A DNA stretch of 44,350 nucleotides, taken from positions 1-44,350 of the IMG/VR virus record IMGVR_UViG_3300028800_000158, one strand, 5' to 3'. Below, piece after piece: positions 750 through 44,317 of this stretch (the first letter of the stretch is position 1; each line of letters begins with the position of its first letter). The notes beneath the pieces are model-generated. The model was not told the origin of the DNA. It did no database searches and worked only from the letters and a program-made list of their open reading frames with translations. The translations under genes were made by a program, and so were the position numbers. The DNA is from a virus.

Positions 750-3502
750 CATTTGCTCCAATACTTTTCGATGTGATAATCAAATTCCATTACAACCTTC
801 TTCATCTTGATTGCTGCGGCCCGTTTGAATGCGTCCCCAATCAGTGCGGCTACTTTCTCCCCATACTGTTTAGGACATTGTACCACAAGCTCGTCATGCA
901 CAAACTTGACAAGTTTTGCCCGATACTGCGAAAGGGTATGGAACAAGAATGGCTTGCCTTCAAGATCATACCCTGCTCCCATCGCTTTCTTGGCAATCGT
1001 TGCGTTAGTTCCCTGAATCCGATGGTTCTTGCCTTGTCGTGTAATGCTATTGGACATCTGGAAGTAACTGCGTCCAACTTCTTTTGCCGTAGGTGGTCTA
1101 TGACTTAGATCAAATTGCTCAGCCTGAGTAGGCTTGCGTCCCTTAATTTGAACAAATATGTCTGTGTTCTTTTGTGTTGCCTCTGGTGTTAGACGCAACT
1201 CCTTTTCATTCCATTCCTTGCAGTTCTCCGTTGCACGTTCGGTATCTGGCTCTGGTAGTAAACGTCTGCGGCCAAATAAGTCAAACGCCTTGAAGTGCAT
1301 TGCGGCGTCTTTACCCGACTTATCAAGGTACGCCCAGATACGCGGATTCTTCATTTCGTGCAGGGCCATTAACTCTTTAGCTGCCTTTACGGTTTTTTTA
1401 ATTTCGACTGCTAACTTACTTGGTCCTCCTCCATAAGCCAAAAGAAAGTTAGTACTTTTGTTCTCATCGCGTCGGATTTTATGTAACGGACAGTTACATT
1501 TCTTTCTGGCCGGTTCTCCGTTCTCTTTTAACTTAAAGTATGCACAATCCGGTAACGCCTCTTTGGGCCACTCGTCCTCATACAAAAGCTCGGTTCCGAC
1601 CGAGTGGACATCTTCTCCCTTCGCAAAAGCATTTATCCATACCGGATCATTAGCATCTTCTGCGATGATACGAAGCTCAGCGCCGGACATATCAGCAGTT
1701 ACATCAACGTACTCTTCGGCGTGTGTCTCGCAATATTGGTCACACTTCGCACATGTGTGTGCGTCTCCTCCCATACTGTGACTTAAATATATCTCAGCTT
1801 CGCAGCAGTTGCTAATCCTGATACTCTCATTTGGTGGGTCTGCAATGAAGCAGCTACGCACTTCTTTATCCTGCGGTAAGTTCTGTCCGTTTGGTTGACT
1901 AGAACTACTGCGCCCGGTTGCAGCATCAAGTTGATTAAACGTGGAATGCAAACGACCGTCGCCCGGATGTAACCAGCCCTCTTCTTTGCACGGGTGAGTA
2001 GTCCACTCAGTAGCCCATGCATCACCATATGTGCCGATTTCTTTTGAAAGCCCGTGGTATTCACGAATCAACTTAATGACCGTATTAGATTCGTACAACT
2101 CTAACGTGTCATCATCGAGGCTTTCAAGTACACCACGCTTGTTGCCCGTCTTCTTACCTTCTTTCTTTTCGTCAACGAACAGGCGTGGAAAGTATTGAAA
2201 GTTATCAGGGTCCGTTAAGATGCGGAGTAATTGAGCATCAGAACTGTAATTGATAAGTGCTTCGCCCTCGCATTTATCGGACAGGTTTTTGATCTTCGTG
2301 CGCTTCTTCTTTAAGTCTGCACATTCCTTCTTGAGAATTTCTTTTTGCTCCTTGCGCTCAAGTTCCCATGAACTCAGTTTAAGGTCTATCTCAGCAATTT
2401 CCAATTGTAATTGAGTCAAAGCGTCCACGTCAATTGTCTTTTTGAGATTACGGCTAAGCGGTCGGCGTGCAATCTTGAGCGCCAGTTCCTGCTCAGTCTC
2501 ATTATTAAGTGCTTTCCACGAAGCCTCTAAGTTGTCAATCTTGGCATCATCAATTGCCTCTAACTTAGACCCAACAATCGGCAAGAAAATTTTGTCAAGT
2601 TCCTGTAAATTAGTTACTAACTTATCTTTCGATTTTTGAACACGTGCTAACCAGCGCTCTCGGTCAATGCGCTCTCCGTGAACGTGCATGTCCACAAAAC
2701 TACCGATAGCTTCGTTCTCAATTGCAATAATGCTGTGAAGATTGTCGCCAAGAATAATTGAATCGAGATAATATAGATAGTCGGCTAACTTAGGTTTTCC
2801 TTTTGCCTTAAGACCCCTAGGCGTCTCCCCGCTAGCAACTACTGTCTGCAACATTTTGATAGCCGCAGGAATCCGAGTATCAAGCGCAGCATACTCTACT
2901 TGGGCGTCAGTCAACTCGCCCTCAAGTGTGAATGATGTTTGTAGGGTCTTGTCAATAGTCATGCCAAAGTAGCGTTCGAACATTGATTCCATTCTATAGA
3001 AATCATAGTTCTTCAATCCGGCTTGCCCGCCTAATCCTGCATATATACACTTCTCCGCAAGCATACAGTCATACCAGCCATATCCACGGAGTCCACATAA
3101 CCAGTAGAAACATTCATATTCGAAGCCAAGATTGACTCCGACCTTAGTCCAACTATTCGAACAGATGTACTTCTCAAGTCGTGTAATCAATTTTGCAAAC
3201 CTTGGAGCCTTGTTTAAATTAGCACCATACTGGCCTTGACAACTGTATAGAAGATCAGAATCGCCATCACAATAAGCAAGTAAATCAATTACGTATTGCT
3301 CTTGGGCTGTCCCAAATTGTATAGTTCTAAGGCGTCTGTAAAAGTAATCTTTCACAGGAGTAGTTTCAACGTCGAGTCCAAATTCTTTAGTTTGCTCTAA
3401 AAAGGCAATCAGCTTCTCTTCACTGGCGTCATCTACAACCCGCGTGATATTGGGAGGCGGGTTTAGGACAAGTGGCTTTAGTTCTCTCTCGGCTATAATC
3501 AT
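749..3502 (-). CDS. Family A DNA polymerase with 3'-5' exonuclease domain
   Basis: A 917-residue replicative polymerase. The N-terminal exonuclease has GLDVETT (Asp44/Glu46), a motif II region around KVGVNLGFEYECF and a motif III YAALDTR. The polymerase domain shows TGRSSSSQPNGQNLPQ, motif A as DMSGAELRIIAE (near residue 604), motif B as RRDENKSTNFLLAYGGG (near 680) and motif C as VHDELVV (near 869). Two Cys-rich insertions occur: CCEAEI...CAKCDQYC just before motif A and KKCNCPLHK just before motif B. The second resembles other phage polymerases I know. An upstream in-frame ATG near 3550 would place the promoter inside the gene. ATG 3502, 7 nt after the -10 box, is chosen, giving a leaderless mRNA. 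Confidence 0.93.
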   Translation of the reverse strand: MIIAERELKPLVLNPPPNITRVVDDASEEKLIAFLEQTKEFGLDVETTPVKDYFYRRLRTIQFGTAQEQYVIDLLAYCDGDSDLLYSCQGQYGANLNKAPRFAKLITRLEKYICSNSWTKVGVNLGFEYECFYWLCGLRGYGWYDCMLAEKCIYAGLGGQAGLKNYDFYRMESMFERYFGMTIDKTLQTSFTLEGELTDAQVEYAALDTRIPAAIKMLQTVVASGETPRGLKAKGKPKLADYLYYLDSIILGDNLHSIIAIENEAIGSFVDMHVHGERIDRERWLARVQKSKDKLVTNLQELDKIFLPIVGSKLEAIDDAKIDNLEASWKALNNETEQELALKIARRPLSRNLKKTIDVDALTQLQLEIAEIDLKLSSWELERKEQKEILKKECADLKKKRTKIKNLSDKCEGEALINYSSDAQLLRILTDPDNFQYFPRLFVDEKKEGKKTGNKRGVLESLDDDTLELYESNTVIKLIREYHGLSKEIGTYGDAWATEWTTHPCKEEGWLHPGDGRLHSTFNQLDAATGRSSSSQPNGQNLPQDKEVRSCFIADPPNESIRISNCCEAEIYLSHSMGGDAHTCAKCDQYCETHAEEYVDVTADMSGAELRIIAEDANDPVWINAFAKGEDVHSVGTELLYEDEWPKEALPDCAYFKLKENGEPARKKCNCPLHKIRRDENKSTNFLLAYGGGPSKLAVEIKKTVKAAKELMALHEMKNPRIWAYLDKSGKDAAMHFKAFDLFGRRRLLPEPDTERATENCKEWNEKELRLTPEATQKNTDIFVQIKGRKPTQAEQFDLSHRPPTAKEVGRSYFQMSNSITRQGKNHRIQGTNATIAKKAMGAGYDLEGKPFLFHTLSQYRAKLVKFVHDELVVQCPKQYGEKVAALIGDAFKRAAAIKMKKVVMEFDYHIEKYWSK

Positions 3503-3509
3503 CTTAACC

Positions 3510-3538
3510 ATTCTAGCATGGAAAAAAAAGTTTGTCAA
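3510..3538 (-). promoter_or_regulatory. Divergent sigma70-type promoter for DNA polymerase
   Basis: On the minus strand: TTGACA (3538-3533), 17-nt spacer, TAGAAT (3515-3510). Seven nucleotides (GGTTAAG) separate the -10 from ATG 3502. No Shine-Dalgarno sequence can fit in the transcript. Confidence 0.8.
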
Positions 3539-3550
3539 CTCACTTGACAA
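3532..3550. repeat. Inverted repeat between divergent -35 boxes
   Basis: TTGTCAA (3532-3538), 5-nt spacer CTCAC, TTGACAA (3544-3550) is a perfect 7-bp inverted repeat. The two arms are the back-to-back -35 boxes of the polymerase and RNase H promoters. The two promoters could hardly be bound independently, so the repeat could also serve as a shared operator. That role is inferred. Confidence 0.6.
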
Positions 3551-3572
3551 CTTGACCGACCTGTGGTATCAT
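3544..3572 (+). promoter_or_regulatory. Divergent sigma70-type promoter for RNase H gene
   Basis: TTGACA (3544-3549), 17-nt spacer ending TGTGG, TATCAT (3567-3572). The ATG at 3579 is only 6 nt after the -10 box, again predicting a leaderless transcript. Confidence 0.82.
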
Positions 3573-3578
3573 GGAAAT

Positions 3579-4004
3579 ATGTCTGAGTACGTATTGAATT
3601 TTGATGGGTCAGTTGGACCCGGAAATCCCGATGTCAATGCACGTTATGCTTATGTGATCCGAAAGGATGGTAAGAACTGGTGCCTTGATAAAGGTGATTT
3701 GGAAAAGACTCAAAAGTACTCTAACAACTATGTGGAGTTTTATGCATTATACAAAGCATTAAAAATGTTGTCTACACATATAACTTCATCTGATTGTCTT
3801 CTTATTCGCGGTGATTCACAGCTTGTTATCAAGATGCTGAAGAACTGGTATAAACCAACACCAACCAAACTATACTATCCTGCTTACTTACTCGCAGCGG
3901 AAGCTTTACGAGAAATTAGAAGCAAGCGGGTGCCTGTATCGATTGATTGGGTGCCAAGGGAAATGAATACAGAAGCCGATAAAGCATCAAAATACAGCAA
4001 GTAG
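3579..4004 (+). CDS. RNase H-like protein
   Basis: A 141-residue single-domain RNase HI-type nuclease that would cut RNA in RNA-DNA hybrids, for example primers during phage replication. The four acidic positions expected of the family are visible: NFDGS (Asp9), NNYVEFYAL (Glu53), RGDSQLV (Asp79) and REMNTEADKAS (Asp134), with the usual WVPRE..N..AD ending. The length matches compact RNases H. The start at 3579 is set by the promoter and not by a ribosome binding site, since none exists. Upstream in-frame codons lie in the divergent gene. It pairs functionally with the polymerase encoded on the other strand. Confidence 0.88.
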   Translation: MSEYVLNFDGSVGPGNPDVNARYAYVIRKDGKNWCLDKGDLEKTQKYSNNYVEFYALYKALKMLSTHITSSDCLLIRGDSQLVIKMLKNWYKPTPTKLYYPAYLLAAEALREIRSKRVPVSIDWVPREMNTEADKASKYSK

Positions 4005-4427
4005 TGGTGAAAAACGTCGAAAGTGGTTTCTCCCTCTGAATATGTGTAGTAAGGGGTTTTTCCAAGCAACGAGCAAGTACTTGATCTTGTCATCTATGGC
4101 GGCGTCTTGGTTGAGTTGTGCGTTTAATCGCACCCGGTATAAAAGAAATCATGTAACCAGTAATGGAATCAATGAGATTGATACTCTTTATTGATTGTAG
4201 ACAGTGGCCCGGTAAAACCTCGTGGCTGAGGCGGGTATCATCTTAACCGCTAGAAAAGGGTAACCTTATTCGCATTGGTCTATTAAACAGACTCTTTAAG
4301 TAACCATAGTAACGTTACTTATCCGGCAGGACAGTATTAACTAACAGTTATGATAGTTAATATAATAGAGATACTGGCAATAAGGACGGCCATAGGTGTA
4401 TCTAAAAATACCATGAAAGGGCTATAA
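4005..4427 (+). other. 423-nt noncoding region rich in hairpins
   Basis: I find no convincing gene here. Several stem-loops can be drawn: GTGCG/CGCAC around 4117-4132, ATCAAT/ATTGAT near 4168-4182, CCTC/GAGG followed by GCGG/CCGC near 4217-4250, GTCT/AGAC (4278-4281 with 4289-4292, 7-nt loop), AAGTAAC/GTTACTT (4298-4304 with 4314-4320) and a 9-bp perfect TATTAACTA/TAGTTAATA (4335-4343 with 4354-4362). The last three are packed closely before the HNH gene. The region may be a structured leader or the remnant of a self-splicing element. I looked for group I core motifs and tRNA arms and did not find them. Confidence 0.4.
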
Positions 4428-4898
4428 ATGAGTAATTTAGTCGATTTTGAGAAAGTATCCGTGAAAGAACTTTTTGAAGCGTGCCCATTATACCGCATTC
4501 CTAAAAAGGATCGAAAGAAGTTTTTGCAGCAAAGATTGCACACCGGTCAATGGATTTCCAAGTTTGATAGAGACTACTATCGTCGGGAATTTAGAAAGAT
4601 TGCCTCCGATTTGATAGATTTGCAATCTGGAGTTAAGTGTTATTTGTGCCCTAAGTTAGCGCAGCATAGACATCATGTACGCCCCATTGCGAGGGGTGGG
4701 GCAAATACAATTGATAATATAGTTCCGCTTTGCATAAAGTGTCATTCGACGTTTGAAGTTAAATATCCAGAAAAGAGAAAAAAAGAGAATTATTACAGAG
4801 TTGTGAATCCTTGGAAGGTAAAGAATTTTAAAAGTCCGCTTTGCAAACCGAAGCAGGGAATAGTCGTTATACCGCCAAATACTCCCTGTGAGATGTAA
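4428..4898 (+). CDS. HNH endonuclease (probable homing endonuclease)
   Basis: A 156-residue protein with a C-terminal HNH module: CYLC (Cys71/Cys74), HRHHVRPIARGG (His82/His83), DNIVPLCIKCH (Asn97, Cys102/Cys105/His106). This is the usual Zn-stabilised beta-beta-alpha metal nuclease, which nicks or cuts DNA. The basic helical N-terminus (residues 1-70) probably binds DNA. It stands alone between replication and virion genes, directly after a structured noncoding stretch, which is typical of mobile phage endonucleases. There is no clear Shine-Dalgarno; GAAAGGGC lies 6-13 nt upstream of the ATG. A packaging-associated HNH role is less likely because it is far from the terminase. Confidence 0.82.
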   Translation: MSNLVDFEKVSVKELFEACPLYRIPKKDRKKFLQQRLHTGQWISKFDRDYYRREFRKIASDLIDLQSGVKCYLCPKLAQHRHHVRPIARGGANTIDNIVPLCIKCHSTFEVKYPEKRKKENYYRVVNPWKVKNFKSPLCKPKQGIVVIPPNTPCEM

Positions 4899-7976: not shown

Positions 7977-8051
7977 TGGCGTCTGGTCTAAAGGCAAGAC
8001 GGAGCACTGTTAATGCTTACGATTCAGGTTCGAATCCTGAGATGCCAGCCA
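7977..8051 (+). tRNA. tRNA-Asn(GTT)
   Basis: Full cloverleaf. Acceptor TGGCGTC pairs with GATGCCA; the D-arm is GTCT...AGAC; the anticodon stem GAGCA/TGCTT carries loop CTGTTAA (anticodon GTT); the T-arm is TCAGG-TTCGAAT-CCTGA. The discriminator is G and the 3' CCA is encoded (8049-8051). Confidence 0.95.
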
Positions 8052-8052
8052 T

Positions 8053-8128
8053 CTTTCCTTCGTCTAACTGGATAGGGCATCGGGTTACGAACCCGAGAGT
8101 GCAGGTTCGACTCCTGTGGGGAAGACCA
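8053..8128 (+). tRNA. tRNA-Arg(ACG)
   Basis: Acceptor CTTTCCT pairs with GGGGAAG (two G-U pairs). The D-arm has loop AACTGGATA, the anticodon stem TCGGG/CCCGA has loop TTACGAA (anticodon ACG), and the T-arm is GCAGG-TTCGACT-CCTGT. The encoded CCA is at 8126-8128. It starts one base after the CCA of tRNA-Asn, so the two are probably processed from one transcript. Confidence 0.93.
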
Positions 8129-10672: not shown

Positions 10673-12727
10673 ATGCGTCTAGAAAAACTAAAAGAATTAT
10701 ACGAGACGTGTAAAGTTCTTCCGCACTACCAGCACAGGGATATGAATGACGGCGAGTTTCTGACCAGAGCTACGAAAAGCTTTCAGAGATTACCGAAGTC
10801 ACAGCAAACAAAGGCAGCAGAAAGTTGGGCCAAGAAACTCAGCAAAGAGTCAATAGCTGTTACACCAGATACAATAAACGAACTTATGCGATATAGGTTC
10901 ATGGCACAGACAAATCTATTCTTTCTCTGTCACTTACTAGAGCTATATGGTCAAACTACTGTAAATACACATGAGGAGATTTGCAATAAGTTTTTCGTAC
11001 AGAAAGACCCAACATTTTTGACATTCGATCATTTTGCAGACCAGTACACCGATTTGAAGCAACGCATGTTATTGGTACCCCGTGGCGGATTCAAATCTAG
11101 TATTGACATGGCGGATTGCATTCAATGGTTCATTTGTTTTCCCGCTATTACCATTGCTATTCTAACGGGTGTTTTACAATTGGCAAAAGACTTCGTGGGT
11201 GAAGTGAAACTACACTGCACTAAAACCGAAGCTGGAACAGATTCAAAAGGCAAATCGTTATACGATGTTCGTCAACTAATGGACAAAAAAACCGGAGAGT
11301 GGTCAGACAGTCTTTTTCAAGTACTATTCCCAGAACATTGTTTATCACCGTTAGAAGGCAACCAACTCGAATTTCAGACGCCCGCCGCTGAAGAGTCTAA
11401 AGAACCGACAGTTAGAGCGGCATCTATTGATCAGGCTTTGTCAGGCAGTCACTTTAATGTCCTAAAGCTTGATGACGTAATCACAAACGAGAACACAAAA
11501 ACAGAAGCTCGTATCAAAGACACGATCAAGCAAATTACCATCAACAACGGCTTGCTTAATCCCAACGGATTTTATGATGTTATCGGCACATGGTATGATG
11601 AACGTGATTACTACGGCGTCACAATTAAGAAGCTAGAGAGACGCGCCAAAGAGGAAGGCTTACTACAATCCATCACAGGATCAGTAGATAGCGGACGTTT
11701 CAATGCTGATTTAAGTTTTAAGATTTATCTTCGCGCTGCTTGGTGGCCTACAGAGGAGGCACTTAAGGCAGGTAAGATTGAAGAAGAAATGACTAAGAGC
11801 GATTGGGTATTATGGTTCCCCGAGCGCCTGAGTTATGAGTTTTTGATTAACAAGCAGAAAGATGACTCCGATTTGGATGACGATGAAGGAGACACCGGTT
11901 ACTTTGCGATTAAATATCTTAACAATCCGCGCAAAGTAAATCGCATCAAGTTTCCAAAAGAACTACTCATGCGACGTACAATTCCGCATACTCAATATCC
12001 ATCACAGGGAATAGTGGTTACTACTGTAGATACAGCTTACAGCACTAAGGCATGGGCTGATTATACAGTTATTCTAACTGCCCTGATCTTCGGAGGACGC
12101 TTCTACATTGTCAACATGGTTAGAGGGAGATTCAATGAATACGACTTGCCCAAAATCATCGCCAACACAGCAAACAAATGGAAACCTAAAAGAATTGCCA
12201 TTGAGGACTCTGTTGGAGTTAAGTGGATGGGTCGAGAACTTAGACGGGAAATGGACAATCTTAGAATTTCCATACCTGTCGAATTTGTATCCCTTGGACT
12301 CGGGTCTAAATTACGATCAAAACAGCTTAAAGCCAAGCCTGTCCTTCGTTTACTAGGCGATGAGCGCTTGTATTTCTTCAACTCCTGTGAAGGTCTTGAG
12401 GAAATTTATAACGAAATGACGCAGTTCACAGGAACAAGCGACGACAAGCATGATGATATTGTATCAGCTATATCACTACTGGTAGAACAATTTATTGGAT
12501 ACGCCGATGTAGATAGCCGCGTTAATTCATATCAGACTGATTTTGTGGCCGATCAAAAGGCAAAGGACAAACACGATCAAATATATTTCTTAGGGAAGTA
12601 CGCAAAGTTCAATGAACTTGGACCCATTGATGACAACCCTAATACACAATTTCAGGTTCAACAGGCGGCACAGCAGAGTATAGATACCACACCAGACGTT
12701 GACCCACTCGCTGATTTATTGCGATAG
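10673..12727 (+). CDS. Terminase large subunit
   Basis: A 684-residue DNA packaging motor and nuclease. The ATPase part has a Walker A-like PRGGFKSS (near residue 136) and a Walker B LKLDDVIT (near 263) with catalytic acidic residue. The C-terminal RNase H-fold nuclease shows TTVDTAYS (near 451), IAIEDSVGVKW (near 509) and a DDKHDDIVSA ending (near 590), the expected acidic triad. The protein docks on the portal and cuts the concatemer. CGGAGGGGT gives a good ribosome binding site. A 54-aa gene and a broken endonuclease separate it from the portal gene. Length and motif order are normal. Confidence 0.93.
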   Translation: MRLEKLKELYETCKVLPHYQHRDMNDGEFLTRATKSFQRLPKSQQTKAAESWAKKLSKESIAVTPDTINELMRYRFMAQTNLFFLCHLLELYGQTTVNTHEEICNKFFVQKDPTFLTFDHFADQYTDLKQRMLLVPRGGFKSSIDMADCIQWFICFPAITIAILTGVLQLAKDFVGEVKLHCTKTEAGTDSKGKSLYDVRQLMDKKTGEWSDSLFQVLFPEHCLSPLEGNQLEFQTPAAEESKEPTVRAASIDQALSGSHFNVLKLDDVITNENTKTEARIKDTIKQITINNGLLNPNGFYDVIGTWYDERDYYGVTIKKLERRAKEEGLLQSITGSVDSGRFNADLSFKIYLRAAWWPTEEALKAGKIEEEMTKSDWVLWFPERLSYEFLINKQKDDSDLDDDEGDTGYFAIKYLNNPRKVNRIKFPKELLMRRTIPHTQYPSQGIVVTTVDTAYSTKAWADYTVILTALIFGGRFYIVNMVRGRFNEYDLPKIIANTANKWKPKRIAIEDSVGVKWMGRELRREMDNLRISIPVEFVSLGLGSKLRSKQLKAKPVLRLLGDERLYFFNSCEGLEEIYNEMTQFTGTSDDKHDDIVSAISLLVEQFIGYADVDSRVNSYQTDFVADQKAKDKHDQIYFLGKYAKFNELGPIDDNPNTQFQVQQAAQQSIDTTPDVDPLADLLR

Positions 12728-12736
12728 GAGATTGCC

Positions 12737-12901
12737 ATGTCTATTAGCCCCGTTCAGCGGATTAAGGAAGGGATTATAACTCGCTACAAAAAGGAATATC
12801 CCGAAGAGAAGGTGTATAGCAAGGCATTTTCCCTATACCTATTAAATAAGTATGCCCGTCTGCTTTACAAGATATATCAGCAAGCCGGAAAGGATAAATA
12901 A
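12737..12901 (+). CDS. Small hypothetical protein (54 aa)
   Basis: A 54-residue basic, Tyr-rich, helical protein (SPVQRIKEGIITRYKKEYPE, then LYLLNKYARLLYKIYQQ). No family is recognised. TAGGAGATTGCC precedes ATG 12737. The stop overlaps the start of the decayed GIY-YIG gene (TAATG at 12899-12903). Its place between terminase and portal may reflect a head-packaging accessory role, but nothing in the sequence shows it. Confidence 0.65.
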   Translation: MSISPVQRIKEGIITRYKKEYPEEKVYSKAFSLYLLNKYARLLYKIYQQAGKDK

Positions 12902-13267
12902 TGCACGTATACATGATCCAAAATTTAGTAAACGGAAAGTGTTATATAGGCCAATATGCTGGTGAAAACTTGTCGGATTATTTGTCATAAGGCGGTGGAG
13001 GTAGACTAGGCACGACTAGCATATGCTCATCTGAGACAAGACTTAAAATGTCACTGAGTCGTAGAGGTAAGTCTAAGTCTCCCGAATGGATTAAGAAAAT
13101 TGGCGATTCCCAACGAGGTCGCAGCTTAAGCCCCGGAGCACATTGCTGCTTTAAGACTTGGACAAAAGGGATGTAAAAAGCCCAAACGTACAGAAGAACA
13201 TATGAGAAAATTGCTAGAAAGTCGTAAAAGAAATAAACTAGCTAAGTTGCAACTACAGGAGGCATAG
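12901..13267 (+). pseudogene. Decayed GIY-YIG homing endonuclease
   Basis: The first 29 codons read MHVYMIQNLVNGKCYIGQYA, the start of a GIY-YIG nuclease and close to the intact gene at 43760 (VYLLTNKLNGKYYVGKT). A TAA follows at 12988. After it the same frame continues with GGGGRLG...SSETRLKMSLSRRGKSKSPEW, matching the C-terminal part of the family (GGG, SE-T-K, NUMOD3-like helices), so most of the catalytic domain is deleted. Near 13136 one extra G shifts the frame. In the shifted frame the tail is EHIAALRLGQKGCKKPKRTE and ends in QLQEA-stop at 13265-13267. Three lesions mean it is inactive. Its last codons contain the Shine-Dalgarno of the portal gene. Confidence 0.85.
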
Positions 13268-13268
13268 A

Positions 13269-13502
13269 ATGGCTCTGTTGGAAAAAGACGGGGTACAAAC
13301 CCAAGCCGATCTAACTGAAAAAGATTACAATAAACAGGGCGATCTTACCAATTCCGGTGCAGAAGTTAATCTTGTAGTCGGGTCGGCAGGGCAAGCAGAA
13401 AAGTTTATTCAGAATAAGCAGTATGCATTGTTATGGCGAGACTCTGATTTGCTATTCCAGTCTCCCCGCCCAATGTCGGTATACGAAAATACATACATCC
13501 TT
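13269..13502 (+). CDS. Portal protein, exon 1
   Basis: The first 78 codons of the portal gene, MALLEKDGVQTQADLTEKDY through PMSVYENTYIL. Read through unspliced, the frame hits TAA at 13506-13508, six bases into the flanking intron's coding phase, which would give only 79 residues. Splicing to 13725 restores an uninterrupted 701-residue portal. The CAGGAGGCATAGA sequence upstream is a strong ribosome binding site that overlaps the broken endonuclease gene. The exon end, CATCCTT, pairs with GGGGATG (13516-13522) in the intron to form P1 with terminal U-G pairs. Confidence 0.85.
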
Positions 13503-13724
13503 TGCTAAGCGGCTTGGGGATGTCTAAACCTTTTTTAATTGACTTGAACCCTGAAACGGCAACAAGGCGCAAGCAGAGAAATCGTGCAGCGTGAGAGACT
13601 AAACAAAGAGGCACTAGAAATAGTGATGCGATAGTCCGTTCTCATGGGAATAAAAACCATGAGAGCTATGCAGAAATGACATAGCTCGACAAGTTACACG
13701 GTCGATAACAAGAGAAGAGAGCCG
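13503..13724 (+). ncRNA. Group I self-splicing intron in the portal gene
   Basis: A 222-nt intron without its own ORF. P1 is CATCCTT | ... GGGGATG. P7 is formed by the R element GAGAGACTAA (13593-13602) and the S element GATAGTCC (13630-13637). P8 is CACTA-GAAA-TAGTG (13612-13625). Downstream hairpins follow: CTCATGG/CCATGAG (13641-13663), AGCTATG/CATAGCT (13664-13686) and CGAC/GTCG (13687-13704). It ends in G (13724), as a group I intron must. Splicing CTT|AAT GTG keeps frame. Alternative 3' sites such as G13728 with exon end 13503 also keep frame, so the boundaries are certain only to a few bases. Confidence 0.9.
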
Positions 13725-15596
13725 AATGTGCAACGTTTTACTGTTGCCAAGGTTGTTAACGCAATCGTTCCTCAGTTATATAAGGGTCTATTCTACACTG
13801 ACCCGCCAATGGTATTACGTCCGCGTCCGGGCACATCGCAGAACACTATCGATGCCAAGACCGCACTGTTTTCAACTCTATTGGACGAATGTAATTTCAA
13901 AATGGAAACCAAGATAGGGCTTGAGCAAATGGCTCATCTTGGAACCGGTATTTGGAAATGGGGAATCAAATACAAAAAGATCATCACTAGAAAGAGAACG
14001 GCTACAGCTACTAAGCTCGAAGCCGGTCCTGAAGGATACAAAGCGACTGCAATGGTGCCCGAAGACAAGGCACCAATGATTGAAAGAAAGACTAGATACG
14101 CGCCTCGCCCGTACATTGAAAGCCGCTCCATTGATAGAGTCCTTGTGGACCCTCACACAATGTTCGGTGATATTCGTAGAGCAGATTGGGCCATTGACCA
14201 ACGGTTCATGGACTTCTATCAGTTCCAAGAACTGTTCAAAGGCATTGCTGCACTACCCGATGGACACCCTGATAAAAAGGGATGGGTCATTCCTAGTGAA
14301 ACAGAATTGAAAAGCTGGTTTCTACCTCCAACCGATGCTGGTACAGCCGGGGAGTCAACAACTCAACAAGCTGCATATATCAATGGTGTTGTACACCATG
14401 CAGAGGACATCAACATACAAGTTACCCCAGACGTTCTAATGAAGAAATTAGAAGTTTTGGAGTATTGGGATAAGAAGCGCAAAATTATTGTCGTCCAGCG
14501 TAAAAAGAAACTGTACGCTGGTGAAAATCCATTTGGCATTATCCCGTTCCTATCAGCTAATTGGTGGAATAGACCAAGAGCTTTCTATGGAATGGGGTTG
14601 GGCCTGATTGTCGGACAGAATCAGCGTGTAGATCAAGGAACAATCAACGCTATCCTGAAAATCCTGTCGTTTGGTGTGAACCCAATTTACTTGCGTAGAC
14701 GTGACTCGAACACGCCTCCGCAGATGATTCGCACCGGTCTTGGCAGAATTTTGTCGGTAGATGGTGAAATTGATAAGGCTTTTGGCCTCTTGGAATCACC
14801 CAAGGTTCCTTCCGATGTGTGGTCCGCGTTGGCTGAATCCGAGAAAGCTACAGAAAGTAGCTCTGGTGCCGATGCACAACTTGTGCAAGGCTCATCATCA
14901 GGTCCAAGATCATCGATGGGACGCACAGCAACAGGTGCGACTAATCTTGCAGGAGCAAGTGCTACACGTCTTGATGGCCCGCTTGATAATTTTATTGAGC
15001 AGGTATTCAAGCCTTGGCTTTACATCCTAGATATGTTAGTGTTCGAATACTTCTCGGATGCTGAGATTTACACAATTCTTGGCGATGAGTTGGGCAAGGA
15101 CTTTGAACTTGATCTACAATCATTCCACGATGGTGTTGTAGAGTTTGAAACCCTAGCCGGTGCGTCACTATCCGCTAAGAGAATCATGGCGCAATCTATG
15201 ACTCTCATTACTCAACTGTTTGAGACACCCGCGATCCAAGAGCAACTAGCGGACATCAATGAAGAGTATATTGACTTCAAAGAAATCATCAAAATGATGA
15301 TGGAAGCAAGCGAGTGGAAGAACATTCAGGACATTATTAAGCCTTTGACGCCCGCTATGAAGCAGAAGCGTCAAGCGCAATCACAAGCAGCACAGCAGCA
15401 ATCTAAACTTGCTACACAGCAAGCCGTAAGCGCACAGAATGCACAACAGAAGTCTAAGCTACAGGCCGAGTCAATCCAAGGACGTATTCAGGAGCGACTG
15501 GTAGTAGGAGCCGTTCTGAATAGTGCAAAAGGTGAGGCTAACGAAGGCCAACCTGATACATCAGGTTTAGGTGGCTCAGAAGATACAGTTGAATAA
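13725..15596 (+). CDS. Portal protein, exon 2
   Basis: The remaining 623 codons of the portal. It begins NVQRFTVAKVVNAIVPQLYKG and continues with LFYTDPPMVLRPRPG, a segment typical of podovirus-like portals. YIESRSIDRVLVDPHTMFGD and FLSANWWNRPRAFYGMGLG also fit the family. The C-terminus is a long Gln/Ala coiled-coil-like tail (QAQSQAAQQQSKLATQQAVS) that could form the portal barrel. As the ring at one capsid vertex it takes DNA from the terminase. GTG 13728 has no ribosome binding site at a proper distance, consistent with this being an exon and not a separate gene. Confidence 0.88.
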   Translation, partial: NVQRFTVAKVVNAIVPQLYKGLFYTDPPMVLRPRPGTSQNTIDAKTALFSTLLDECNFKMETKIGLEQMAHLGTGIWKWGIKYKKIITRKRTATATKLEAGPEGYKATAMVPEDKAPMIERKTRYAPRPYIESRSIDRVLVDPHTMFGDIRRADWAIDQRFMDFYQFQELFKGIAALPDGHPDKKGWVIPSETELKSWFLPPTDAGTAGESTTQQAAYINGVVHHAEDINIQVTPDVLMKKLEVLEYWDKKRKIIVVQRKKKLYAGENPFGIIPFLSANWWNRPRAFYGMGLGLIVGQNQRVDQGTINAILKILSFGVNPIYLRRRDSNTPPQMIRTGLGRILSVDGEIDKAFGLLESPKVPSDVWSALAESEKATESSSGADAQLVQGSSSGPRSSMGRTATGATNLAGASATRLDGPLDNFIEQVFKPWLYILDMLVFEYFSDAEIYTILGDELGKDFELDLQSFHDGVVEFETLAGASLSAKRIMAQSMTLITQLFETPAIQEQLADINEEYIDFKEIIKMMMEASEWKNIQDIIKPLTPAMKQKRQAQSQAAQQQSKLATQQAVSAQNAQQKSKLQAESIQGRIQERLVVGAVLNSAKGEANEGQPDTSGLGGSEDTVE

Positions 15597-16033: not shown

Positions 16034-16944
16034 GTGATACCCAAGTAGCAACACCAGTCGAACAGACATACACATACCAACCAACAGATGCAGAAAACCG
16101 CCCTATTGGTGGAAAACAGGTAATCAAGTACACCACACAAGAGGAGCTAGTATCCAAGATTCAAGAGCAGAATATTCTCCTGATTCGTAAGCTTCGTGAG
16201 CAGACAAAGAAGGTTCGCCTTGGCATTGAGGAAAGAGAAGACCTTGGAGAGAATCTAGAACATTTTGACGGGCCGGTTGAATTCAAACCACGTGAACTAA
16301 GCGTCGAAGAGAATTACGACATTGCGCGTAGACTGACTGATCCGACAACTTCATCAGCGGCAACCGATGAGTTATTGGAAGCACGTCTCGGCGCTCCATT
16401 GAATGTAATCGGATCAACTCTACAAAAAACACAGCAAGAAGTCATTACATTGCGTGCAAAGTTAGAGGCCAATTCATTCGTAGCTGAGAACCCGGATTAC
16501 TACAGGTGCCCTGAGAACTTTGAAGCTATCACATCATGGATGGTTCGTTATGAACTAGCCCCTGTGAAGGAGAACTTCCAGAAAGCCTACGACACACTAA
16601 AGGCGCAGGGTCTTCTTGTTGAAGGCGCGGCTCCCGTGCAGACAGCACCGGTTGTAGAAACTCCCGTTGTAACGGAGGCTCCAGCCGTAAACAATACGCA
16701 ACCTGCTCAAGTCTCTGTACCCGGCTTAGCTAGCGGATTGACCAACGAGGATGCTTCGAATGTTGGAACACCAGTTCCGCTAGGAAGCGATATTACATAT
16801 GTGCTCAACGGAAACACACTAACCGGTCTCGCTGCCATCGCAGCTATGCCGTCAGAGGAGTACAAATACCGTTTGACACATGACAGAGAGTTCTCAAAGA
16901 AAGTCGATCAATTGGAAGCCGCAGCTAGAAAGCCAAGGGGCTAA
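16030..16944 (+). CDS. Scaffold-like head assembly protein
   Basis: A 304-residue protein. The N-terminal half is charged and helical (EELVSKIQEQNILLIRKLRE, TLQKTQQEVITLRAKLEANS), fit for coiled coils, and is followed by a compact NPDYYRCPENFEAITSWMVR segment. A Val/Pro/Thr-rich linker (PVVETPVVTEAPAV) and a short C-terminal domain close it. Order after the portal and before the major capsid, together with coiled-coil content, is what scaffolding proteins show. I infer the role from this and not from a recognised family. One copy of the 13-bp dispersed motif lies within it. Confidence 0.65.
   Translation: MSDTQVATPVEQTYTYQPTDAENRPIGGKQVIKYTTQEELVSKIQEQNILLIRKLREQTKKVRLGIEEREDLGENLEHFDGPVEFKPRELSVEENYDIARRLTDPTTSSAATDELLEARLGAPLNVIGSTLQKTQQEVITLRAKLEANSFVAENPDYYRCPENFEAITSWMVRYELAPVKENFQKAYDTLKAQGLLVEGAAPVQTAPVVETPVVTEAPAVNNTQPAQVSVPGLASGLTNEDASNVGTPVPLGSDITYVLNGNTLTGLAAIAAMPSEEYKYRLTHDREFSKKVDQLEAAARKPRG
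16686..16698 (+). repeat. Dispersed motif CGTAAACAATACG, copy 2
   Basis: A perfect 13-mer inside the scaffold-like gene (codons for Ala-Val-Asn-Asn-Thr), about 260 bp upstream of the GNAT gene. Shares CGTAAACAATACGCA with the copy at 36967. Confidence 0.7.
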
Positions 16945-16945
16945 A

Positions 16946-17392
16946 ATGGTACGAGACTACAAAGAAGAGGACTTTGCTAGTATCCGATCTATTGACGAAT
17001 TATCTTTTGTTGATCCCGAACCCGAGTGGTTTCTTAAAAAAGCTATCGAGAAGGGTAAGGCATGGGTATTCGAGGAAGATGGTAAGATTCAAGGCTTTCT
17101 TGTCGGCAAGATCAAACACGACTCACCGTATGTCCACAACGTCGCGGTGAAGAAAGAATTTAGAAATAAGGGTATCGCAGCCGCGTTGTTCTCCAAATTT
17201 GAAGAGCATTACGGTGCAGCCCAGAAACCTGAAAACAAGATGTTTTGGCTTCAGGTGAATTGTAACAATCCCGCGCAAAAACTATACTTCGATTTGGGGT
17301 ATAGGATTTGTTCGGTGGATGAGAATTATTACGGCTCTGGCGAACATGCTCTTTGTATGTATAAATCAGCTAGACCGCTTGCATTACGGTAA
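16946..17392 (+). CDS. GNAT family N-acetyltransferase
   Basis: A 148-residue protein with the GNAT core: VHNVAVKKEFRNKGIAAALF carries the beta4 strand and the acetyl-CoA pyrophosphate loop (R-N-K-G-I-A), followed by a helix. NNPAQKLYFDLGYRIC is the conserved C-terminal motif B region. It would transfer an acetyl group from acetyl-CoA to an amine; the substrate is unknown. Located between scaffold-like and capsid genes, it may modify a virion protein, although many phages carry such enzymes without proof of role. ATG 16946 is one base after the previous stop. A longer upstream frame overlaps the scaffold-like gene and is not used. Confidence 0.87.
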   Translation: MVRDYKEEDFASIRSIDELSFVDPEPEWFLKKAIEKGKAWVFEEDGKIQGFLVGKIKHDSPYVHNVAVKKEFRNKGIAAALFSKFEEHYGAAQKPENKMFWLQVNCNNPAQKLYFDLGYRICSVDENYYGSGEHALCMYKSARPLALR

Positions 17393-17620
17393 GGGACTTT
17401 GACCCTAGATAGGCTAGGTAAATCGTTACCGCCATGGCACTCGCAGTCGGATTACTGTAGAACCACCAATTTGCGTGAGGCAACTTCGGTTGAAGTCTTA
17501 ACAGAAGGCATCGAAAGTACAGTCGGATTACTGGCATGACTAGATGACGCATCAAGGACATGGGAAATTATTCTCTGGGAGGAGAAGAGTAGTCTACCAC
17601 TTAAAAGGAAAACTACTAAC
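17393..17620 (+). other. Structured leader of the major capsid gene
   Basis: A 228-nt noncoding stretch. The 14-mer CAGTCGGATTACTG occurs twice (17444-17457 and 17520-17533), each able to fold as CAGT/ACTG with the same six-base loop. Between them is a CAAC-TTCG-GTTG tetraloop hairpin (17481-17492). Upstream are GGTAA-ATCG-TTACC (17417-17430) and an overlapping CCTAG/CTAGG alternative. TTGACC at 17399 could belong to a promoter but no -10 sits at the right distance. The leader probably stabilises or tunes the most abundant late mRNA. Confidence 0.5.
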
Positions 17621-18655
17621 ATGGCCGGTTATAGCCCATCTAGTAATAATCAATCAAATCTGCCTCAGTCAACGGTTCGCTACTACGACAAAAAGTTCCG
17701 TGAGAACCTGAAGGCACAGACACCGTTCGTTGCATGTTCGGAGCGTCTGGACCTACCTATGAAGTCTGGTAATCAATATGAACTTTTCATGTATGTTCCT
17801 TTGGCTGCTAATACAACGCAGACAACTGAAGGTACAGTTGGAAGTGGTATTGCTGTACAGGTTCTAACTACAACTGCAACAATCGGTGAATATGCAGATT
17901 ATGCGAACTTCTCAAGTCTATCTTTGGCTACAGCTATTGATAACACTGTTGAGAATGTAGCACGTGAGCTTGCATATCGTCTGGGCGAGTCCCTAAGCGG
18001 ACTTGTTCGTGCAACTGCTGACGGTGCAAACGCCGTTGACGCAAGCGTACTAACACAGCTTGGTGCAACATCAACCACAGCCTTTACAACCTTGAGCTTG
18101 AGCCAAATCCGTAACTCTGTACAGAGTCTAGCGGGTCGTTCAGTTCGTCCGTTTGACGAGGCTTCAAAGACTTTCTGCGGTGTAATTCACCCGTTCGCTC
18201 TTGGCGACGTTCTTGCTGACAACAGCAACAACGCACCAATCGACATCCTGAAGCACACGCCAGTGGGTCTAGCCCGCATGGAAGATTTAATTTCTGTTGA
18301 TCTGACAGAAATGATTGAACTGCCTTCAACCGGCGTTCGCTTCTTCCAGACAAACCAAGTCACAGCAACTACGAATTATAAGGGCGTAACCGGTCTAACA
18401 GCCCTACGTACTTATATCTTCGGACGTGACGGCATCTTCAGTATTAAGCTAGGTGCTCAAGGCGATACAGGCTTCGGTGACGGAGAGTGGCAGAACATCA
18501 AGTGTAACATCGTGCAAAATGCTGAGCCGACAGTCGCGGACCCCGAAGGGCTAATCCCCGGATGGACAAGCTATCGTGTTCACTTTACCACCAGCCTTGG
18601 ACCGGATACCACAATTAGGATACGCGAAATCGACGCGGCTTCAGCAATCAGCTAA
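17621..18655 (+). CDS. Major capsid protein, N4-gp56 type
   Basis: A 344-residue protein with the opening RYYDKKFRENLKAQTPFVAC and KSGNQYELFMYVPLAANTT, matching the N4-gp56 family of HK97-fold capsid proteins that I recognise. Further features are TTTATIGEYADYANFSSLSL, VCGVIHPFALGDV-like positions (FCGVIHPFALGDV) and a C-terminal GWTSYRVHFTTSLGPDTTI. It is the only family-level capsid candidate, it follows the portal and scaffold-like genes, and a hairpin terminator follows. AAAAGGAAAAC upstream is a fair ribosome binding site. Codon use appears even, as in highly expressed genes. Confidence 0.88.
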   Translation: MAGYSPSSNNQSNLPQSTVRYYDKKFRENLKAQTPFVACSERLDLPMKSGNQYELFMYVPLAANTTQTTEGTVGSGIAVQVLTTTATIGEYADYANFSSLSLATAIDNTVENVARELAYRLGESLSGLVRATADGANAVDASVLTQLGATSTTAFTTLSLSQIRNSVQSLAGRSVRPFDEASKTFCGVIHPFALGDVLADNSNNAPIDILKHTPVGLARMEDLISVDLTEMIELPSTGVRFFQTNQVTATTNYKGVTGLTALRTYIFGRDGIFSIKLGAQGDTGFGDGEWQNIKCNIVQNAEPTVADPEGLIPGWTSYRVHFTTSLGPDTTIRIREIDAASAIS

Positions 18656-43759: not shown

Positions 43760-44317
43760 ATGTATGTATACTTATTAACAAACAAATTGAATGGAAAATA
43801 CTATGTAGGAAAAACTAAAAAGAAAGACTTACAGAAGTATTTTACATTTAAGAAGTGGTGTGCTAAGAAAGGCGGTAATTACCATCGTATGCCTGTTATT
43901 GCGGCTATTGCAAAATACGGATGGGATAGTTTTACTGTCGATGTACTTAGCATTGTTGATACCGAAGAACAAGTTAATGATCTAGAATGTCTTTGGATTG
44001 TTCTTTTAAATTCTAGAAACCCAGACATAGGGTACAACATTGCCATTGGTGGTGGAAGGGTTTGTGCTCCATTATCTGAGGCAACTAAGGATAAGATCAG
44101 CGCTGCTAATAAAGGCCGAAAACCAAAAGGCTACATACGCACAGATTTGCATAGACAACAACTTCGTGATAGAATGAAGGGGAATAATATCGGCACTAAA
44201 TTTACATCTGAGACGGCACGACTAGCAATGATAAATGAAACCCCTGAGAATAAGACAAAAAGAATTGCAGGAATTCAAGCAGCTTGGGATCGAAAACGCG
44301 GTATAACTGGAGGGTAA
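43760..44317 (+). CDS. GIY-YIG homing endonuclease
   Basis: A 185-residue protein. The N-terminal nuclease has VYLLTNKLNGKYYVGKT (family pattern Y-x(10-11)-YVG), a catalytic Arg candidate at HRMPVIAAIAKYG, and Glu in VNDLECLWIVLLNS. A GYNIAIGGGRVC junction leads to a DNA-binding tail of NUMOD3-type helices (LSEATKDKISAANKGRKP, TSETARLAMIN). It is intact and related to the decayed copy at 12901. The start follows the ejection gene by 8 nt with weak ribosome binding. It may be free-standing or at the edge of an element that continues outside the window. Confidence 0.87.
   Translation: MYVYLLTNKLNGKYYVGKTKKKDLQKYFTFKKWCAKKGGNYHRMPVIAAIAKYGWDSFTVDVLSIVDTEEQVNDLECLWIVLLNSRNPDIGYNIAIGGGRVCAPLSEATKDKISAANKGRKPKGYIRTDLHRQQLRDRMKGNNIGTKFTSETARLAMINETPENKTKRIAGIQAAWDRKRGITGG

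Follow-up and report, generated by a model that had tools for sequence, protein, structure and literature searches.

The portal gene of a soil phage, virus record IMG/VR IMGVR_UViG_3300028800_000158, whose 44,350 bases are here called the window, is broken: its reading frame meets a stop at 13508, coding resumes further downstream, and removing one segment restores the frame, as an earlier note on this DNA had observed. This raises the question of what the segment is, and how an element that holds no open reading frame (ORF) may have come to lie there. Judged from the evidence below, it is a 216-nt ORF-less group I intron inside the portal gene; the best reading of its history, and in our view a probable one, is that it was a passenger spread by collaborative homing, which is now stranded.

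The interrupted portal gene and its relatives

The head genes of the window follow the order terL, portal, two to three small genes, and a capsid-like gene (17621-18655). Tunturiibacter phage Tunturi_3, the sole record of the phage collection matched by the window portal protein, has the identical head-gene order, and its portal gene is unbroken. A search of the Tunturi phage paper returned no mention of an intron, homing, an endonuclease or a portal, and a literature search found no paper combining a group I intron with a portal gene. Elsewhere, the window holds adjoining genes for tRNA-Asn and tRNA-Arg (7977-8128), an HNH endonuclease gene (4428-4898; Pfam HNH and HNH_5) and, at its right end, an intact free-standing GIY-YIG endonuclease gene with a NUMOD3 motif (43760-44317; Pfam).

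Among 80 related virus contigs, the portal gene is uninterrupted in 62 and interrupted in 15, while three lack exon 1. Portal introns are thus present in 15 of the 77 loci of this virus group that show exon 1, at odds with the earlier suggestion that a portal location is uncommon. Comparison with intron-less portal homologues had also been proposed, extra homologous residues at this point, together with a missing covariance match, being the outcome that would speak against an intron; the 62 uninterrupted genes have no homologous insert, and hence that outcome was not reached. One contig, L001, equals the window over 4661 nt at 100% identity, intron included.

Ends of the intron

Splicing at 13502-13717 would join the exons as ENTYI-L-E-P-NVQRF, with U (13501) as the end of the exon and G (13717) as the end of the intron (Table 1). 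The ends first proposed, 13503-13724 (222 nt), also keep the frame, but join ENTYIL straight to NVQRF; compared with that junction, all 62 uninterrupted homologues with both exons have two extra residues, which are EP or TP in the 11 homologues inspected. We rejected the 222-nt version because it would delete two residues kept by 62/62 uninterrupted homologues; the 216-nt version fits them.

Nucleotide-level ends were assigned for 27 portal introns, 15 at five sites plus 12 more that raise the number of sites to nine. Every one is preceded by U and has G as its last base, though this is no independent test, since the ends were picked among frame-consistent options with that rule in mind. Contiguous P1 pairs number at least five in 14 of the 27, four in 3, three in 9 and two in 1 (L151a); at site s2, nine of ten introns have only three to four. 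We also considered a CCU target as a general rule. It fits many portal sites and fails at s7, s8, s9 and the inspected capsid sites, where the guide sequence fits other exon ends.

Table 1. Features of the portal region of the window (positions in the window; all on the + strand).
Feature	Position	Remarks	Basis
terL, terminase large subunit	10673..12727	upstream limit of hot spot	profile matches
GIY-YIG homing endonuclease gene wreck	12901..13276	in terL-portal gap	broken frames, 49-75% identity to intact L021, L025
Portal exon 1	13269..13501	77 codons + two bases	tblastn vs 80 relatives; 5' splice site from uninterrupted homologues
P1, 5' exon strand	13495..13501	ACAUCCU	7 contiguous pairs with guide; U.G at splice site
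ORF-less group I intron	13502..13717	216 nt; U before, G last	uninterrupted homologues, frame, covariation, model
P1, internal guide sequence	13517..13523	GGGAUGU	pairs with 13495-13501
Catalytic core P3-P9	13527..13665	R1 model	147.9 bits; row belongs to R1's own seed
P3, 5' strand	13529..13535	partner 13605-13611	6/7 pairs with double-sided changes, 15 introns
P7, 5' strand	13595..13601	one bulged base; partner 13632-13637	100% paired; outer pair covaries GC:10 AU:5
P8 hairpin	13612..13625	CACUAGAAAUAGUG	covariation; capsid-gene relatives hold endonuclease ORF at P8
P7, 3' strand	13632..13637		core alignment, R1 match
P9 hairpin	13641..13663		5/7 pairs with double-sided changes
P9.1 + P9.2 hairpins	13664..13705	approximate limits	single-sequence fold; missing from shortest relatives
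Portal exon 2	13718..15596	SU10/P22-type portal	PHROG + Pfam portal profiles

Fold and covariation

The segment 13480-13750 folds better than 200 of 200 shuffled sequences (z -3.05). The intron contains no ORF, and its elements are P1, P3-P8, with AGAAAU as the P8 loop, P9 and two more P9-type hairpins; P1, P7, the capped P8 and the three P9-type hairpins recognised in the earlier note are all present.

For a comparative test, 15 homologous introns of 183-247 nt from 11 loci were aligned over their core. Excising these introns, which occupy five positions, on paper leaves an open and conserved portal frame at 11/11 loci; many of their lengths are not multiples of three, yet the frame remains intact. 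Over P3-P9 including P7, 93.9% of the cells are paired, compared with 33.7-45.5% in slid controls, and 27 of the 41 core pairs show changes on both sides; 0/500 shuffles reached such values on these measures. A measure of further pair types did not exceed the shuffles (42 vs 44.2). RNAalifold recovered the same nested helices from the core alignment. The helices P3-P8 and P4-P6 around a pseudoknotted P7, by which a group I intron is recognised, are all supported, and the host gene is restored on excision, on paper.

Model R1 and known group I introns

A covariance model, R1, was built from the 15 portal introns; it finds one copy in the window, itself a seed row. As an outside test, R1 was run on eight named phage records, of which six matched. 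The LittleE capsid intron was found at E 1.1e-5, the S-PM2 psbA intron at 0.0075 (with a second S-PM2 match elsewhere, at 1.85), and the T4 nrdD, nrdB and td introns at 0.0135, 0.0226 and 0.405; the matches in T4, Twort and S-PM2 are individually weak (E 0.0075-0.4). Those in T4, S-PM2 and LittleE fall in annotated split genes; the Twort match (16817-17409, E 0.026-0.14) lies in what we take to be an intron, where the local annotation names none. SPO1 and Tunturi_3 gave no match to R1. Splicing of the LittleE capsid intron has been demonstrated by RT-PCR and N-terminal sequencing (PMC3706429). Together with the covariation and the splice arithmetic in relatives, this recovery of known phage introns bears out the original proposal of an ORF-less group I intron in the portal gene.

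The suggested covariance search with RF00028 did not return the family: Rfam as a whole, RF00028 included, left it unmatched both at the gathering cut-off and at E 10. The RF00028 model has itself been described as incomplete (PMC11878797), and the missing match is a matter of score threshold and no biological criterion. Among cultured phages, the search for close relatives of the intron gave partial matches only (best E 9e-6 for the window, 2e-13 for L068). The remaining two of the six records matched by R1 each hold an unannotated intron. One (MW202674.1, 16879-17025, E 1.5e-17) is in a record whose annotation divides the P22-type coat gene into two CDS on either side of a 'hypothetical protein'; the other (OR420741.1, Roseobacter phage CRP-118, 35076-35225, E 3.6e-13) sits between two CDS annotated for ribonucleotide reductase.

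The family outside the portal gene

A pattern scan of virus contigs found the family in at least 120 stretches. Of these, 80 (L112-L191) were run through R1, which at E 0.001 gave 117 matches in them, mostly in capsid and portal genes; L192-L231 were used in the endonuclease scan only, except that L225 is also among 14 further portal loci described below. By eye, family introns were also seen in a terminase gene, an HK97-type portal gene and another structural gene (L139:1361; L133/L147/L150; L184). In a set of cellular genomes that represents 84,980 bacterial and archaeal species by one genome apiece, only five stretches matched the pattern (L355-L359: Peribacillus, an Acidobacteria MAG, a Firmicutes MAG and two archaeal assemblies), which may be viral contigs in bins.

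The capsid gene of the relatives has introns at about eight places as judged from tblastn ends, three of which were inspected by eye at base level, and ORF-less introns are found at many of these sites. Near capsid residue ~24, the P8 of family introns contains an ORF of the endonuclease VII type (L037, L039, L041, L044 and L076; the ORF of L039 matches Pfam Endonuclease_7), and ORF-less introns are found at about the same residue in L052 and L068. At residue ~92, L064 has an intron with an endonuclease ORF that is LAGLIDADG-like by eye and HNH by PHROG. From these sequences, the family is able to accept an endonuclease in P8, while the portal introns hold none. Many further LAGLIDADG-like ORFs of about 150-310 aa lie downstream of the portal gene, in or near the capsid gene (for instance L008:6321-7247, L031:7091-8038 and L013:5938-6858), and some of them may represent additional introns or inteins missed by R1.

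Crowded intron sites beside an endonuclease gene

The 27 portal introns occupy nine positions within 87 nt of a gene of ~2.1 kb, at CDS nucleotides 154, 161, 171, 180, 182, 204, 226, 233 and 240 (window numbering, counted by hand). Seven loci (L019, L029, L030, L068, L122, L143 and L151) have two introns each. The nearest relative of the window intron is that of L021, at the same site and 88% identical over the core.

Many relatives carry a free-standing GIY-YIG gene in the gap between terL and portal. Searched against PHROGs, these genes give strong homing endonuclease matches; Pfam GIY-YIG scores L019, L022, L052 and L068 above its cut-off and L021, L025 and L029 below it, and did not match the L008 endonuclease. 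Intact copies keep the motif tyrosines, the Glu and the Asn, and most rows keep the basic residue of A-R-K-Y-G. In the window, the gap measures ~540 nt and the gene is a wreck: after its start, ~74 codons (residues about 28-101) that include catalytic positions are gone, and two pieces in different frames follow. The wreck resembles the L021/L025 type of endonuclease. A small ORF of 54 aa (12737-12901), without a match in a PHROG search, lies between terL and the wreck.

Introns and gap endonucleases tend to occur together. Among 72 usable loci, 8 have both (counting L001, the window's own broken copy), 5 an intron only, 8 an endonuclease only and 51 neither (p 7.6e-4); of the 80 loci at the outset, L026, L038 and L043 were left out for lack of exon 1, and L023, L032, L040, L041 and L054 because their upstream DNA is too short. 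The association persists in 46 dereplicated clusters (8/2/4/32 in the same order, p 7e-5), where 8 of 10 intron-bearing clusters have the endonuclease compared with 4 of 36 others, and with one count per genotype (8/3/4/33, p 1.6e-4). Of eight phylogenetically independent contrasts, 5.8 showed the endonuclease changing in the same direction as the intron and 0.0 in the opposite direction (median p 0.031). The association has exceptions on both sides: three of 11 intron-bearing genotype groups (the L030, L031 and L055 types) are without a gap endonuclease, and four endonuclease-bearing clusters are without an intron.

Another query yielded the 14 further loci, four of them with an intron: L225, L266 and L272 have an endonuclease and L270 does not, although L270 is a copy of the L030 type and L225 had previously been met through its intron. 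The 10 intron-less loci gave one weak GIY-YIG match. Of the portal loci met solely via their introns, L129, L131/L132, L143, L151 and L179 possess an endonuclease and L144 and L187 lack it; the sequence of L122 does not reach far enough to be scored, and L126 and L137 have diverged too much. The endonuclease phylogeny, a tree with long branches, did not clearly track the intron site.

Swapped blocks between near-identical phages

L068 has an endonuclease and two introns, and L037 has neither. Their flanks are mostly 97-100% identical, apart from 2201-2400, where identity falls to 86-92%, while the shared coding parts of the block (3201-4100) are only 60-82% identical; L039 compares with L068 much as L037 does. 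Similarly, L029 and L030 share 99-100% identity except in a block that runs from the terL end to about the intron end; there, L029 has an endonuclease and introns at s3 and s2, and L030 has introns at s4 and s5 and no endonuclease. Two further pairs, L052 with L044 and the window with L002, have diverged too far to show sharp block limits. Such block differences are what an exchange of endonuclease, exon and intron would leave, and the joint exchange with a flanking exon that defines collaborative homing is thus seen as a comparative signature rather than in a cross. A swapped block is a sign of recombination and is silent on its trigger. The other hallmark, a free-standing endonuclease gene beside the split gene, is found in the relatives, and in the window as a wreck.

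How the intron may have come to the portal gene

We infer collaborative homing from the adjacency, the association and the swapped blocks. From its class, the intron would be expected to excise itself from the mRNA with a guanosine cofactor, P1 marking U13501 and G13717 being the last intron base; the outcome would be an intact portal protein. The GIY-YIG enzyme probably cleaves portal genes that lack an intron, doing so near codons 52-80. Repair would then copy the endonuclease, exon 1 and the intron or introns together, which is collaborative homing; an intron within this stretch would shield its carrier from the cut. The earlier note had regarded the insertion site as one that homing requires; no endonuclease is encoded within the intron, and the neighbouring GIY-YIG gene, broken in the window, is the candidate driver instead. 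Since that gene has decayed, the window intron would be inherited and probably no longer driven. The wreck resembles the genes of L021 and L025, L021 also carries the intron most similar to that of the window, and so the window intron looks like a one-time passenger that has lost its driver.

The term and cases of collaborative homing have been published (PMC3984707, PMC10448857, PMC2988022). In S-PM2, a group I intron splits psbA next to the free-standing F-CphI gene, and the endonuclease site matched the intron insertion site (PMC3984707); here, the enzyme is of the GIY-YIG type and lies upstream, many intron positions fall in one short stretch, and cleavage at the intron site is a prediction. 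The T4 nrdB intron is likewise mobilised in trans by a free-standing endonuclease, mobE, although that is an HNH enzyme acting at a single site and the T4 intron has a defective endonuclease inside it (PMC2988022). The ICP1 terminase intron also splits a packaging gene, with the endonuclease beside the N-terminal exon and outside the intron; its enzyme is T5orf172-type, and one intron is described in the sections of PMC10448857 consulted. The LittleE capsid and BAKA tail introns share with ours a virion gene, a U exon end and a G intron end, and the BAKA intron has no endonuclease (PMC3706429); they differ in genes and hosts, and the LittleE intron has its own endonuclease and RT-PCR-proven splicing, while splicing in the window is predicted from sequence.

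The main rival is that the introns spread mainly alone, their RNA reverse-splicing at guide matches of a few bases and being copied to DNA, with the endonuclease as an independent parasite of the same hot spot. In its favour are the nine sites in one gene, with a U before each cut and 3-7 contiguous P1 pairs in 26 of 27 introns, and the ORF-less copies at many capsid-gene sites; moreover, the introns at s3 and s5 of L068 are sisters (tree support 96/95), and site labels are scattered on the intron tree (13 changes, with a minimum of 8 and a shuffled-label mean of 16.2). Gene conversion could equally yield sister introns, however, and pairing with a short guide does not predict that portal sites are packed in 87 nt; the association with the endonuclease persists after dereplication and in independent pairs, and a review states that direct experimental proof of the route is lacking (PMC3984707). 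We therefore consider it unlikely that reverse splicing explains the pattern by itself; it may act beside collaborative homing, since something must carry introns to new positions.

It is less likely still that the window intron formerly held an endonuclease in P8 and lost it through an ordinary homing cycle and decay. The capsid introns near residue ~24, some with an endonuclease VII-type ORF and those of L052 and L068 without, offer a precedent, but all 27 portal introns, at 183-247 nt, are too small for an ORF, and the endonuclease gene that is present instead lies outside the intron and belongs to a different family, GIY-YIG. Finally, that there is no intron at all, and the break reflects an assembly error, a pseudogene, programmed bypassing or an in-frame insertion, would agree with the lack of an Rfam match but is scarcely credible given the identical sequence in a second contig, frames that stay intact although the excised lengths are often indivisible by three, covarying group I helices, and the absence of the segment from uninterrupted homologues.

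Extending the reading of the intron as a stranded passenger, we tentatively propose, as something possible rather than probable, that the 87-nt portal stretch is a common target of the local GIY-YIG enzyme. Any family intron at one of at least nine positions would then immunise its carrier and be driven together with the endonuclease, new positions being reached via guide retargeting (reverse splicing). If this is true, phages would trade pre-formed immunity introns that sit in their essential virion genes, and a parallel system would operate in the capsid gene.

Implications

By itself, the window intron is nothing unusual within a known class. The family to which it belongs is unseen by Rfam, was matched in at least 120 virus-contig stretches, and splits portal and capsid genes; gene callers therefore report broken genes. 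Whether introns that lack an endonuclease spread by collaborative homing or by reverse splicing is an old question, and the crowding of sites beside an exchangeable endonuclease provides many natural pairs in which to ask it.
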